Shown here: positions 10,629 to 15,192 of the stretch, one piece after another
Layout: each line of letters begins with the position of its first letter
Position numbering within the stretch: the stretch's first letter is position 1
NCBI GenBank assembly: GCA_002793915.1
Contig: PFEF01000010.1
Coordinates: 15,390-60,010 of the forward strand
Length of the DNA: 44,621 nt
Source of the DNA: Candidatus Ryanbacteria bacterium CG10_big_fil_rev_8_21_14_0_10_43_42
GTDB taxonomy: Bacteria; Patescibacteriota; Minisyncoccia; Ryanbacterales; 2-02-FULL-48-12
Direction of reading: 5' to 3'
Notes under the pieces: model-generated
The model's input: the letters and a program-made list of their open reading frames with translations, nothing else
Database searches by the model: none
What the model was told of the DNA's origin: nothing
Position numbers and translations under genes: made by a program

Positions 10629-10691
10629 ATTATGGGCATTATCGATATTGGAAAGTGAGACCTCCTAATATTGATAGTAAAATACATATGG

Positions 10692-10697
10692 TACAAT
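10692..10697 (+). promoter_or_regulatory. Extended -10 element of the helicase gene
   Basis: TACAAT preceded by TGG gives a TGn-extended -10. A TTGATA at 10671-10676 is 15 bp upstream. In-frame ATGs at 10671 and 10701 fall in or too near the promoter, so the start is placed at 10707. Confidence 0.55.
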
Positions 10698-10706
10698 ACG
10701 ATGACT

Positions 10707-12377
10707 ATGAATCAGCAAACGGCGCTTGCCATATTAAAGACGGGACGCAATGTATACCTTACCGGAGCCGCGGGAAGCGGTAAAACGTATGCTCTTAATA
10801 GCTATATTACCTACTTAAAAGAGCGTGGCGTGTCCGTTGCGATTACGGCATCCACCGGCATTGCGGCAACACACTTGGGCGGCAGTACCATTCATTCATG
10901 GGCGGGTATCGGTATTCGTGATTTTTTAAGTGCACGGGATATTGATGACATAACGCAAAAAGAACATGTTGTAAAGCGCATGCAGAGTGTGCGCGTACTT
11001 GTTATAGACGAAGTATCCATGTTGCCGGCGGGTGTTTTGGATATGGTGGATCAGGTATGCAGGGCGGTAAAACGCTCGGATATGCCATTTGGAGGTATGC
11101 AGGTGGTTCTTTCGGGAGATTTTTTCCAACTGCCTCCTATTACGCGCGGCAATGAACCGGTACGGTTTGCATACGCATCGGACGCATGGAAGGGTATGAA
11201 TATTCGCGTATGCTATTTGGGCGAACAATTTCGACAGGATGACGAGACGCTTCTTCGCATATTGCATGAAATACGCGACGGAAAAGTATCGGAGGAATCG
11301 CGCGATATACTTATAGAATGCAAAGAACGCACGCTTGATAATGGCATGACGCCCACGCGGCTTTTTACGCATAACGTGGATGTTGACGCACTCAACGATA
11401 AAGAGCTTTGTGATCTTTCCGGTTCGGAAAAATCGTATGAAATGAAAACAACCGGACGTGCTCCGCTTGTTGCATCACTGGAAAAAAGCGTATTAGCGCC
11501 CCGAACTCTTCGTTTAAAAAAGAACGCGAAAGTCATGTTTGTGAAAAATAATTTTGAGGAAGGATACGTAAATGGAACATTGGGTGTCGTGGAAGATATT
11601 CGCGGGGATGTTCCGGTTGTGCGCACATTTAGCGGAAAAAAAATATGGGTACATCCGGCGGAGTGGGCTATTGAAGAGGACGGTAAGATGCGTGCACGGA
11701 TTGAACAACTGCCAATTCGTCTTGCATGGGCCATTACCATCCATAAAAGCCAGGGGATGAGTATGGATGCCGCGGAAATAGATCTTTCCCGATCATTTGT
11801 GGAAGGGCAGGGATATGTTGCGCTTTCACGGCTTCGGTCTTTGCAGGGCCTTATCTTGACGGGACTTAATGCCATGGCATTTCGGGTACATGCGGACGTG
11901 GCGCGGGTAGATGCGATTCTTAAAAAAGAATCAAAAAAATGGGAGGAAATGTTTTTGGGATTAAGCGATAGGGAAATATGTGCAATGCAGGATAATTTTA
12001 TAAAAATATCCGGCGGCACACTCGATTCGAAAGATATTGCGGCGAATAAAGAAAAGGTTTTGGAAGAAAAAAAACCCAAGAAAGAAAAGCAGTCCACATA
12101 TGAAAAAACCCGTATTCTCATGGAGAAAGGATTATCTCTTTCCGAAATTGCCGGAGAGCGTGGTATGGCAATAGGAACTATTATTACTCACCTGGAGAAA
12201 TTAAAAGAGAAAAAAGTACCCGTTAATTTTGAGCAATTTAAGCCAAAAGATGAGAGCTTTGAAAAAATTGCCGCGGCATTCGCGGGTGTGGAAGATAATA
12301 AGTTGGGTCCGGTTTTTGGTAAACTCCGCGGAAAGTATTCGTATGAGACTATTCGGCTTGCCCGTCTCTTTCTTTAG
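10707..12377 (+). CDS. Pif1/RecD2-like superfamily 1 DNA helicase with C-terminal winged-helix (HTH_40-like) tail
   Basis: The product has 556 residues from the ATG at 10707. The helicase core shows Walker A GAAGSGKT (20-27), motif Ia ITASTGIAATHLGG, Walker B VLVIDEVSML, motif III VVLSGDFFQLPP, and the C-terminal motifs AWAITIHKSQGMSMD and EGQGYVALSRLRS of Pif1-type 5'-3' helicases. After a charged linker (about 435-468), residues about 470-550 contain a helix-turn-helix (TRILMEKGLSLSEIAGERGMAIGTIITHLEKL) like the HTH_40 domain found at RecQ C-termini. The likely role is unwinding of G4, R-loop or stalled-fork DNA. It is preceded by an extended -10 and followed by a large inverted-repeat element. 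Confidence 0.9.
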   Translation: MNQQTALAILKTGRNVYLTGAAGSGKTYALNSYITYLKERGVSVAITASTGIAATHLGGSTIHSWAGIGIRDFLSARDIDDITQKEHVVKRMQSVRVLVIDEVSMLPAGVLDMVDQVCRAVKRSDMPFGGMQVVLSGDFFQLPPITRGNEPVRFAYASDAWKGMNIRVCYLGEQFRQDDETLLRILHEIRDGKVSEESRDILIECKERTLDNGMTPTRLFTHNVDVDALNDKELCDLSGSEKSYEMKTTGRAPLVASLEKSVLAPRTLRLKKNAKVMFVKNNFEEGYVNGTLGVVEDIRGDVPVVRTFSGKKIWVHPAEWAIEEDGKMRARIEQLPIRLAWAITIHKSQGMSMDAAEIDLSRSFVEGQGYVALSRLRSLQGLILTGLNAMAFRVHADVARVDAILKKESKKWEEMFLGLSDREICAMQDNFIKISGGTLDSKDIAANKEKVLEEKKPKKEKQSTYEKTRILMEKGLSLSEIAGERGMAIGTIITHLEKLKEKKVPVNFEQFKPKDESFEKIAAAFAGVEDNKLGPVFGKLRGKYSYETIRLARLFL

Positions 12378-12503
12378 TAAAACCTCCGTGTTCGGCATAT
12401 TTCTGCGTTACGGGGCCCCGCTCGTTCCTCCGCCGTATGTTTAAATACGTCTCCGTCACTCGCTTCCCCGTGCCTTGAACTGCACTCAAACACGAAGGTT
12501 TTA
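12378..12503. repeat. GC-rich composite inverted-repeat element, possibly a terminator or island boundary
   Basis: A 15-base arm TAAAACCTCCGTGTT (12378-12392) begins directly after the helicase stop and is matched, with one mismatch, by the complementary arm at 12489-12503. The 96 bases between are GC-rich and contain nested complements (ACGGGG near 12410 with CCCCGT near 12466; CGTAT/ATACG around GTTTAA). The right arm ends in TTTTATTAATTT, so it could terminate transcription. It sits exactly at the left edge of the AT-rich accessory island. No ORF is supported in it. Confidence 0.6.
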
Positions 12504-12569
12504 TTAATTTAAACTTTTTGGTAAGTATACCTTGTTTGTAAGTAGGGGATTTTTCGATATATTATGGGT

Positions 12570-13121
12570 ATGAGCAACTTTTTCCAATATCAAACATTCA
12601 AAGAATCTGCCATGAACTTATTTGAGCAGATTTTGGTTGGTTTTAATAATGGAGAGTGGGGTTTTCTTTTTCTGTATTTTTTCGTAATTGTACTTTTGTT
12701 TGTAATTACTCCTACTGTAGGCGTTATTACTATTGTAAAGTTTTTCCAATCTGGGAAAAAACTTAAAATAGAACCTATTTGGAAAAGTAGAAGTGGAAAA
12801 CCGATGGTTATATTAAGTGTTTCTAATGTTGGTGCAAAAGGAGTATATCTAGAATATTATGGATTTACAAAATGGAATGGTGAAAAGGTTAAAGAACCAG
12901 TTACTCATGTAGAGCTATATAAAAAATTTGAACCAAATGATGCAAGGAAACAATTATCTTTCTATAGTGATATAGAAGGAAAGCCGTTAGAATTGAACAT
13001 GAATGATATATATTACTTTTACGTTACAACATCTGTTGATGATATTTTTAAGAAATATAACAAACCGCCAATAATTAGAGGTATTGTTTGGTGTTATAAG
13101 CGGTTAAAACTTATTCCTTGA
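12570..13121 (+). CDS. Single-pass membrane protein with C-terminal beta-rich domain, accessory island gene A
   Basis: The product has 183 residues: a short N-terminus, one long hydrophobic segment (about 32-58) and a soluble domain whose strands (IEPIWKSRSGKPMVILSVSNVGAKGVYLEYYGF) look like an immunoglobulin-like beta-sandwich. I recognise no named family. The ATG at 12570 is six bases after a TATATT and is preferred to the in-frame ATG at 12564, which lies within the -10 area. Base composition is clearly more AT-rich than the neighbours, with many AGA and TTT codons. It stands 34 bp upstream of the ImmA/IrrE gene and is probably part of the same acquired module. Confidence 0.7.
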   Translation: MSNFFQYQTFKESAMNLFEQILVGFNNGEWGFLFLYFFVIVLLFVITPTVGVITIVKFFQSGKKLKIEPIWKSRSGKPMVILSVSNVGAKGVYLEYYGFTKWNGEKVKEPVTHVELYKKFEPNDARKQLSFYSDIEGKPLELNMNDIYYFYVTTSVDDIFKKYNKPPIIRGIVWCYKRLKLIP

Positions 13122-13129
13122 AAAGGTAA

Positions 13130-13135
13130 TATAAT
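13130..13135 (+). promoter_or_regulatory. -10 element upstream of the ImmA/IrrE gene
   Basis: A consensus TATAAT lies 20 bases before the ATG at 13156; TTGAAA at 13118-13123 is too close to be a normal -35. It may give the protease gene its own transcript. Confidence 0.4.
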
Positions 13136-13155
13136 TACTGTTGAATATAAATATT

Positions 13156-13653
13156 ATGACGATTGCAAACTATAAAAAGGCAGAAAAATATTCTTCTGAG
13201 GTACTCAAGGAGAATTTTGTGCTTTCTCCACCAGTTAATATAAAAGAACTTGCTAAAAATTATGGATTGGAAGTAATTGAATTTGATTTTGGAGAAGAGG
13301 CAAATAATATATCTGGTTTTATAGATATAGAAAAAAAGAAAATATATGTAAATAGTAACGATTCGGAAAATCGTAAAACATTTACTGTTGCACATGAGTT
13401 GGGGCACTGGTTACTTCATAGAGAAAAATTAGATACAAACCCTGATTATGCAATTCTTTATAGACAACCACTTGGTAAAGCAAATAAAGATCCGATAGAA
13501 GCTGAAGCAAATTTCTTTGCAGCGACATTACTTGTCCCTAAAGAATTGCTTGATAAGGAAGAAAATAAAGACCCTACTTATCTAGCAGGGCGTTTTAAAG
13601 TATCAGAGGAAGTTATTGGGTACAGATTGGAAGATACGAAAAAGAAAATATGA
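13156..13653 (+). CDS. ImmA/IrrE-family metallo-endopeptidase, accessory island gene B
   Basis: The product has 165 residues. The zinc site is clear: FTVAHELGHWLLHRE with HELGH at 80-84, followed by IEAEANFFAATLLVPKELL, which supplies the third glutamate (116 or 118) in the pattern usual for this family. The N-terminal part (NIKELAKNYGLEV) matches the usual lead-in helix. ImmA-type proteases cleave repressors of mobile elements and IrrE/PprI-type proteases cleave stress repressors; partners usually carry an Xre-type HTH. None is encoded here: the neighbours are membrane proteins. Its TGA overlaps the next ATG (ATGA at 13650-13653). The DNA is AT-rich compared with the flanking core genes. Confidence 0.9.
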   Translation: MTIANYKKAEKYSSEVLKENFVLSPPVNIKELAKNYGLEVIEFDFGEEANNISGFIDIEKKKIYVNSNDSENRKTFTVAHELGHWLLHREKLDTNPDYAILYRQPLGKANKDPIEAEANFFAATLLVPKELLDKEENKDPTYLAGRFKVSEEVIGYRLEDTKKKI

Positions 13654-13949
13654 GTGAGTATGATACAGTCAAAAAAATTCTTGAGAACAGAAAAAATCAG
13701 GTGCGAATTCAAGGTTTTGAGGAGTTTTTTAAACTTCGTAAAGAATGGGCTAGAGGAATATTGGGACTTTTGTGGGTATTAGTTATATTCCAAATTATTA
13801 CTACCTACTTAATAGGCTTTGGTAAGGTTGATTTTCAAAATTATAGAGTATTCCTTTATATTGTCATTGGGGAAAGTTTTGGTCAAATTATAGGATTAGC
13901 CACCATAATTGTTTGGTTCTTTTTTAAAGGGAAGAGTAATAAAAAATGA
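13650..13949 (+). CDS. Small two-TM membrane protein, accessory island gene C
   Basis: The product has 99 residues. A charged amphipathic N-terminus (SEYDTVKKILENRKNQVRI...) leads into TM1 (about 36-57) and TM2 (about 68-92), ending in a basic tail. There is no recognised family. The start codon overlaps the protease stop (ATGA), which implies tight translational coupling and perhaps a direct partnership. A membrane-embedded partner or substrate of the protease is an inference from this arrangement only. Confidence 0.8.
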   Translation: MSEYDTVKKILENRKNQVRIQGFEEFFKLRKEWARGILGLLWVLVIFQIITTYLIGFGKVDFQNYRVFLYIVIGESFGQIIGLATIIVWFFFKGKSNKK

Positions 13950-14053
13950 AAAAAGATAATACAACGGCAGACAAGGGATTTTTCCACACCCTACTCAATA
14001 AAGCAATAGGTGATGTTAAATCCGTTCCAACAACACCTCAAAAATTGGAATGA
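13946..14053 (+). CDS. 35-residue peptide, accessory island gene D
   Basis: A short frame starts at an ATGA overlap with gene C and encodes MKKDNTTADKGFFHTLLNKA followed by a short Pro/Thr-rich tail, ending at TGA 14051-14053. There is no membrane segment. The identical ATGA coupling at two successive junctions argues it is translated. Tiny, charged C-terminal cistrons are common in small selfish or toxin-antitoxin-like modules, but no family is recognised and it could be a decayed remnant. Confidence 0.5.
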   Translation: MKKDNTTADKGFFHTLLNKAIGDVKSVPTTPQKLE

Positions 14054-14205: not shown

Positions 14206-15192
14206 ATGGCATTTGTTGATGAAATAGACATATATGCGCGTGCGGGCGACGGTGGAAACGGCGTTGTTCGGTGGCGCCGGATGCGGAACATAGAATTTGG
14301 CGGGCCGTCCGGCGGGGATGGCGGACGCGGAGGGGCAGTGTACCTTCGCGCTGTTCGGGACGTGCATTTGCTTTCCAAGTATCGTGTGAAGAAAGAATTT
14401 ATTGCAAAGCGCGGACAGGATGGAGGAAGTGATTCTCTGGAAGGAAAAAACGGAGAAGATTTATATATTGATCTTCCCATAGGATCCGTTGTCACTAATG
14501 TGGAAACACAAAAAAATATTTCCCTTTTACACGAAGGAGAGGAAGTGCTTTTACTGGAGGGAGGGAACGGCGGACGCGGAAATGAATCATTTAAAAGCTC
14601 GCGTAACCAACGGCCGCGCCAGGCAACGCGGGGACGTGCGGGAGAAGAAGGATTTTATCATATTGAACTTGAGCTTATTGCCGATATCGGCCTCATAGGG
14701 CTTCCCAATGCCGGGAAAACAAGTTTGCTGAATGAATTTACAAATGCGCATGCAAAGGTGGGCGCATATCCGTTTACCACATTGGAGCCTAATTTGGGAG
14801 AATGTTATGGATATATTATTGCCGATGTTCCCGGACTAATAGAAGGTGCGGCGGAGGGACGCGGACTGGGACATAAATTTTTACGGCATGTAAAGCGTCT
14901 TTCCGTTTTGGTACATTTAATTTCTCTTGAAAATAAGGATCCGGTAAAGACCTATGCAACCGTACGCAATGAACTTGCAGAATATGATAGCGATCTTTTA
15001 AAAAAGAAAGAAATTATTGTTCTTACAAAAACGGATATATTATCGGATAGAAAAGAAGTAGAAAAAATTATGACAAAAATGAAAAAAATCTCGCCGCTCG
15101 TGTACACCGTATCCGTTTATGATGATGCATCGCTTAAAGCGCTTAATGACATTCTCTTGCAGGAAGTAAAAACAGCTATTGACGCTAGTTAG
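14206..15192 (+). CDS. obg: Obg-family GTPase (ribosome assembly / stress GTPase)
   Basis: The product has 328 residues. It has the glycine-rich Obg fold (about 1-155, with DGGNGVVRWRRMRNIEFGGPSGGDGGRGG) and the GTPase domain: G1 GLPNAGKTS (165-173), switch YPFTTLEPNLG, G3 ADVPGLIEGAAEGRGLGH and G4 LTKTD. The C-terminal OCT extension found in many Obg proteins is absent. Obg acts in large-subunit maturation and growth control. The ATG lies 6-8 bases after a TGC-TAGTAAT extended -10-like box, with no ribosome-binding site, suggesting a leaderless transcript. It is the first core gene after the accessory island. Confidence 0.95.
   Translation: MAFVDEIDIYARAGDGGNGVVRWRRMRNIEFGGPSGGDGGRGGAVYLRAVRDVHLLSKYRVKKEFIAKRGQDGGSDSLEGKNGEDLYIDLPIGSVVTNVETQKNISLLHEGEEVLLLEGGNGGRGNESFKSSRNQRPRQATRGRAGEEGFYHIELELIADIGLIGLPNAGKTSLLNEFTNAHAKVGAYPFTTLEPNLGECYGYIIADVPGLIEGAAEGRGLGHKFLRHVKRLSVLVHLISLENKDPVKTYATVRNELAEYDSDLLKKKEIIVLTKTDILSDRKEVEKIMTKMKKISPLVYTVSVYDDASLKALNDILLQEVKTAIDAS

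Follow-up and report, generated by a model that had tools for sequence, protein, structure and literature searches.

An AT-rich island situated between a helicase gene and obg in a Patescibacterium genome raises the question of why an ImmA/IrrE (Peptidase_M78) protease should be encoded next to membrane proteins instead of an HTH repressor. An earlier note on this DNA proposed a four-gene, toxin-antitoxin-like or phage-defence module acting at the membrane, and took it for an undescribed system. Within the window (the whole stretch of DNA analysed, 44.6 kb), four ORFs, A to D, lie on the same strand (Table 1), the last three joined, as that note had described, by ATGA sequences shared at the B/C and C/D junctions; 34 nt separate A from B. 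The compositional contrast with helicase and obg that it had pointed out is borne out: at 30.9% GC, the island lies ~5 SD under the mean of the window (42.5%, SD 2.4%), and the lowest-GC intervals of the 44.6 kb fall inside the island. Values per gene are 0.299 (A), 0.321 (B), 0.307 (C), and 0.361 (D), versus 0.450 for the helicase gene and 0.448 for obg, and GC3 is 0.20–0.28 in the island versus 0.37–0.43 in the flanking genes. No phage genes were noted around the island, and in two sister genomes with a readable obg, other genes adjoin obg and the helicase gene is absent there. The AT-rich DNA suggests that the B-C module probably arrived by horizontal transfer.

Table 1. Genes and elements of the island and its flanks, in window coordinates
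Feature	Position	Strand	Remarks
Helicase gene	10671–12377		flanking gene
137-nt hairpin-forming element	12376–12512		in the helicase-A gap; single copy
Putative island promoter	12532–12566	+	TTGTAA, 16–18 nt, TATATT/TATTAT; consensus scan, enrichment over shuffles not clear
Gene A, 185 aa	12564 (or ATG 12570)–13121	+	one N-terminal TM stretch; AT-rich island; outside the conserved module
Gene B, 165 aa	13156–13653	+	M78 (ImmA/IrrE) protein without HTH; PF06114; proposed antitoxin, RmrA-like
Gene C, 99 aa	13650–13949	+	two-TM helical hairpin; proposed membrane toxin, RmrT-D5 homologue
ORF D, 35 codons	13946–14053	+	ATGA overlap with C; bare ORF, no independent support
obg	14206–15192		flanking gene

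The putative promoter is very close to the ATG of A, so A would be nearly leaderless. The hairpin-forming element upstream of it has a predicted RNA minimum free energy of −37.2 kcal/mol (z −3.7) and outer arms TAAAACCTCCGTGTT and AACACGAAGGTTTTA; elsewhere in the genome it has just a 21-nt echo, and an Rfam search gave no match, either for this element or otherwise.

B is a Peptidase_M78 protein (PF06114, E 1.8e-24, above the cut-off, positions 1–123 of 123) and the sole member of this family found in its genome (904 kb, 98.5% complete); an in-frame TTG at 13141 lies upstream of its start. The HELGH site is intact, as the earlier note had read it, and so is an E-x-x-A-N-x-F-A motif further downstream. 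Of the PADLOC models, capP fits B best (8e-26); the M78 part of the RmrA models also matches (3.6e-13), and its PDB relatives are CapP (7t5t, the best) and IrrE (3dte). Despite this likeness to the CapP/CapH proteins of CBASS, a CapH-type HTH gene is absent beside B, and the neighbours (helicase, A, C, D, and obg) do not form a CBASS operon. B also resembles ImmA of ICEBs1 and the COG2856-Xre pairs in being a M78 protease of ~160 aa in a two-gene unit (Makarova et al., 2009; PMC2701414), but the partner in those units is a Xre/HTH repressor. None adjoins B, and A, C, and D have no HTH family match; plasmid M78 genes close to B, in contrast, do have an HTH partner. An HTH + M78 pair on a plasmid of Rhizobium sp. 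007 (L111) adjoins genes for a multiubiquitin-domain protein and a ThiF-family adenylyltransferase, which places an M78 switch next to a ubiquitin-like system.

The adjoining C has two TM stretches, in agreement with the earlier reading. In the model (mean pLDDT 74), the N-terminal part is a long helix that continues as TM1 and is joined to TM2 by a short turn. C homologues share a charged N-terminal region of varying length, a basic/aromatic stretch ahead of TM1, a short loop, and a TM2 that ends in a V-K-x-L-F(-P) motif. As a single-sequence query against plasmids, phages, and IMG/VR, C found nothing; the families could be linked through profiles only. Profile and fold searches of C against the PDB gave nothing reliable. 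Two PHROGs of no known function, phrog_35754 (1.8e-8) and phrog_5346 (2.5e-6), match 11 of 16 C members, which supports phage carriage and gives no function. Matches to Pfam HlyIII and SUa-2TM (E 0.02–0.03, 1 of 16 members each) were dropped as chance.

Searches with a C profile, blind to M78, of three genome sets (380 from the phylum, 286 from the window's class, and 286 from another class; ~950 Patescibacteria in all) identified nine further C loci at independent places (L006, L007, L008, L012–L016, and L018, the last from the same species as L002); matches L004, L019, and L020, which lie inside other proteins or are fragments, were set aside. An M78 gene lies immediately 5′ of C on the same strand in 9/9 of these loci, with a spacing of −16 to +10 nt except in L014 (202 nt); inspection of L002/L018 shows the two frames abutting or overlapping, and reading the other C loci by eye gave no recognisable HTH gene. 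A census starting from M78 (PF06114) found the family in 63 of the 380 genomes (51 above the Pfam cut-off). Among the census loci read, ten carry a C homologue right after M78 (the window, L006, L007, L008, L023, L026, L031, L038, L045, and L065), none with an HTH gene in its place, giving a patchy distribution of 10/380 genomes. Since the C-first and M78-first searches both pair C with M78, C is a true partner of M78, and the suggestion that a membrane protein replaces the HTH repressor holds; the coupling is conserved.

The census also revealed other partners. A second kind of two-TM protein is encoded directly after M78 in L027, L034, L037, and L043, and an overlapping gene in a Helicobacter prophage (L083:2928–3371) is analogous to it; one-TM partners follow M78 in L021 and L032. 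Frequent swapping of the membrane partners of M78 thus seems to occur. Behind larger M78 proteins lie genes of other kinds, which look PIN-like by eye in L042, L044, L051, and L054; a PIN association of HTH-fused M78 forms is described in an excerpt of the survey by Makarova et al. (2009; PMC2701414), where Xre, RelE, and PIN associations are named and the two-TM family of C is not among them. In L048, M78 (1459–1971) is followed, with a 4-nt overlap, by a 339-aa gene opening with a SIR2-like GAGAS motif, possibly another M78-linked defence effector.

The proposed four-gene unit shrinks accordingly to B and C: the B-C order recurs across Patescibacteria, whereas A and D are not conserved with it. 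The earlier note would have abandoned its proposal had the partners never co-occurred with the protease; this is the case for A, but C always lies beside M78. A has, as noted earlier, one clear hydrophobic stretch (near residues 30–60), past which the single-sequence model has a pLDDT of ~24–33, and no match in Pfam, PADLOC, or NCBIfam. A model of such low confidence speaks neither for nor against the beta-sandwich-like fold that the earlier note had read in A. In the order, 10 genomes yielded one relative (L010, 28% identity, E 5.5e-5), which has no M78 gene adjoining, and none was found in 286 other genomes of the phylum. D has no family match, no detectable relative, and no counterpart after C at other C loci; it is possibly not a gene. 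We take A and D to be passengers or local accessories.

Searching phages with B and inspecting the neighbours of the matches led to Gordonia phages in which a M78 gene and an overlapping (ATGA) 2TM gene lie near the integrase: ThankyouJordi gp33/gp34, Polly gp29/gp30, and Kita gp32/gp33 (Kita gp33 is identical to Polly gp30). When ORFs of the phage loci were searched with a C profile built from Patescibacteria only, it matched ThankyouJordi gp34 at E 7.7e-11 and Polly gp30 at E 4.5e-5, and 0/1000 window-wise (local) shuffles reached either real score. Comparison of the C family with the two Gordonia proteins in hhalign gave 92.7% over 87 columns; TM partners of M78 that are unrelated to C reached 4.6% and 1.5%. 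The reverse profile, made from the two Gordonia proteins, ranked the C family members L008, L016, L012, L023, and L007 top among other two-TM ORFs (set of 64). The same shuffle control led us to reject the 2TM partner of a Mammaliicoccus phage as a proven C homologue (79/1000 shuffles were as good), and it is not counted; gp43/44 of Gordonia phage CarolAnn, a four-TM, RexA-like arrangement with no protease, was likewise rejected.

Other phages encode membrane proteins next to M78. In the P2-like phages Peduovirus P2 (OU784750; L080), Salmonella phage MET_P1_103_31 (L082), and Pseudoalteromonas phage ACA1 (L088), M78 is followed by another 2TM protein, unrelated to C by profile and belonging to phrog_8096 in P2 and ACA1. 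Four loci of phages and alphaproteobacterial plasmids (L084, L085, L109, and L112) have, just upstream of M78, a gene for a TM protein whose C-terminal tail is long and charged, possibly another membrane partner in reversed gene order.

The Kita pair provides a described counterpart. Ernits et al. (2023; PMC10440598) reported for this phage an ImmA-domain antitoxin and a toxin without known relatives, D5, and named the system RosmerTA. The toxin halts translation, transcription, and replication at once, with rapid depolarisation, pore formation, and Sytox entry; the M78 antitoxin relieves just part of this toxicity, and E. coli carrying the pair is protected from a few coliphages, named as Bas54 and Bas59 in the text, with the pairs worded differently in the figure legend (PMC10440598). 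The main text of that paper gives no toxin accession. We infer that the D5 toxin (RmrT-D5) is Kita gp33 (AMS03346) and the antitoxin (RmrA-D25) gp32, because gp32 is the sole M78 place in Kita by tblastn and is overlapped by gp33, and because the C-terminal half of gp33 has two TM stretches, as described (PMC10440598).

The locus in the window agrees with the Kita arrangement in having an HTH-less M78 gene first and a 2TM gene second, with an ATGA overlap and with both proteins homologous: B supplies the M78/ImmA-domain gene and C the coupled, adjacent homologue of RmrT-D5 (taken to be gp33). B and gp32 share 35% identity over 103 aa, and the PADLOC picture for gp32 (capP 6.7e-26, M78 part of RmrA 3.3e-15) is nearly as for B. 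B-C differs in lying on a Patescibacterium chromosome, not in a phage, and in having the extra neighbours A and D. Identity between C and gp33 is ~10% in the alignment and the homology rests on profiles, so function may have shifted. Canonical RosmerTA (PADLOC RmrA; NCBIfam spr1629 family) also uses a M78 domain as antitoxin, with diverse toxins, but its RmrA models are 357–400 aa long and have an N-terminal part that is absent in B, which matches just positions ~130–270 of these models. B is therefore no full-length RmrA in the PADLOC sense, and it scores 42.6 bits against the spr1629 equivalog cut-off of 335. Gp32 is similarly short (178 aa), matches just the M78 part of the RmrA models, and also fails as a full-length RmrA, which excludes the canonical form for B and leaves the Kita type standing. 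Judged by homology, B-C belongs to the Kita-type RosmerTA pairs as a distant member that lies on a chromosome and lacks an HTH, and the label "undescribed system" no longer applies.

We consider it likely that B and C form a Kita-type pair of M78 antitoxin and 2TM membrane toxin, probably acting in abortive phage defence. This reading draws on the adjacency of C and M78 in both search directions, the match of the Gordonia 2TM proteins to the C profile beyond all shuffles, the shared shortness of B and gp32, the AT-rich island and patchy spread, and the behaviour of the Kita pair (membrane toxin, partial neutralisation, and coliphage protection; PMC10440598). By analogy with that pair, the earlier suggestion of toxin-antitoxin-like or phage-defence action at the membrane appears largely right.

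Under the Kita-type reading, B would be made first from the shared message, and C would follow by stop-start coupled translation. C is predicted, from its sequence and model, to form a two-helix hairpin in the inner membrane, its charged N-terminal helix and short C-terminus facing the cytoplasm. The most likely way for B to keep C inactive would be to bind the N-terminal region of C in the cytoplasm, and B may perhaps cut C as well; in Kita the neutralisation is partial. A trigger such as phage infection or stress would upset B and release C, which would oligomerise, depolarise the membrane (as the Kita homologue does in E. coli), and halt growth, so that growth stop or death would precede phage maturation, consistent with the phage protection that the Kita pair confers on E. 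coli. Many Patescibacteria live on other cells, so the target of C could differ.

Other roles are conceivable for a coupled protease and membrane protein. Stop-start coupling and constant gene order would also suit a complex in which C, being small and without another domain, merely anchors or adapts B, and B removes other membrane-sited proteins. Such housekeeping is very unlikely given the presence in 10/380 genomes, the foreign-looking island, phage carriage, M78 membrane partners of several unrelated kinds, the retention of pairs with dead proteases, and the toxicity of the Kita homologue. Some phages have lysogeny modules in which M78 genes accompany those of membrane exclusion proteins, and the Gordonia phage pair adjoins an integrase; B-C could accordingly be a prophage-derived remnant of superinfection exclusion, with C blocking DNA entry at the membrane without killing. 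We regard this as highly improbable, since the surroundings of the island revealed no phage genes and, in E. coli, the Kita toxin causes membrane depolarisation and halts growth. The intact active site of B raises a further option, in which C is a harmless precursor and B, once activated by a signal (damaged or phage DNA, for example), cuts the N-terminal region of C, freeing a pore former. The relatives CapP and IrrE, which are thought to be switched on by single-stranded DNA, do cut partner proteins, and the charged region ahead of TM1 varies among C homologues. This order of events is nevertheless unlikely: in Kita the toxin needs no partner to be toxic and becomes less so with the M78 protein present (PMC10440598), and the pair persists where M78 has lost catalytic residues.

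Such losses bear on how the toxin may be neutralised. C-linked M78 proteins with a damaged active site are found in L002/L018 (ILLGR; L002:4433–4939), L006 (HQVGY; 962–1486), and L065 (HELGN; ~1800–2369). In a M78 tree, from which L065 was left out, L002 and L006 (a long branch) group with the window, L007, L008, and L023, with support of 85/94, which is not strong. Tree and motifs fit repeated loss of catalysis while the pair was kept, although the affected pairs may be decaying systems. Three pairs with lost catalytic residues hint that neutralisation may not need proteolysis; because the zinc-binding or catalytic residues are lost while toxin gene and coupling are kept, it is possible, if somewhat doubtful, that in the Patescibacteria pairs the M78 fold serves as an antitoxin which acts by binding, with no need of proteolysis. 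The M78 proteins of L002/L018, L006, and L065 are thus candidate pseudo-protease antitoxins. If this is true, the family would include genuine pseudo-protease antitoxins, and where the active site is intact, proteolysis would have its role in triggering or regulation, not in neutralisation. The incomplete neutralisation in Kita means that the label "antitoxin" is not beyond doubt even there.

What is new here is the presence of the pair across Patescibacteria, including three pairs with a catalytically damaged protease. A recently validated phage-defence pair of membrane toxin and M78 antitoxin is thereby extended from actinobacterial phages to Patescibacteria. The C family profile, which no Pfam or PADLOC entry matches reliably, could be used to annotate many genes now called "hypothetical" beside ImmA/IrrE proteases. 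Whether an ImmA/IrrE antitoxin neutralises its toxin by cutting or by binding becomes directly testable with the natural pairs in which the active site is broken.
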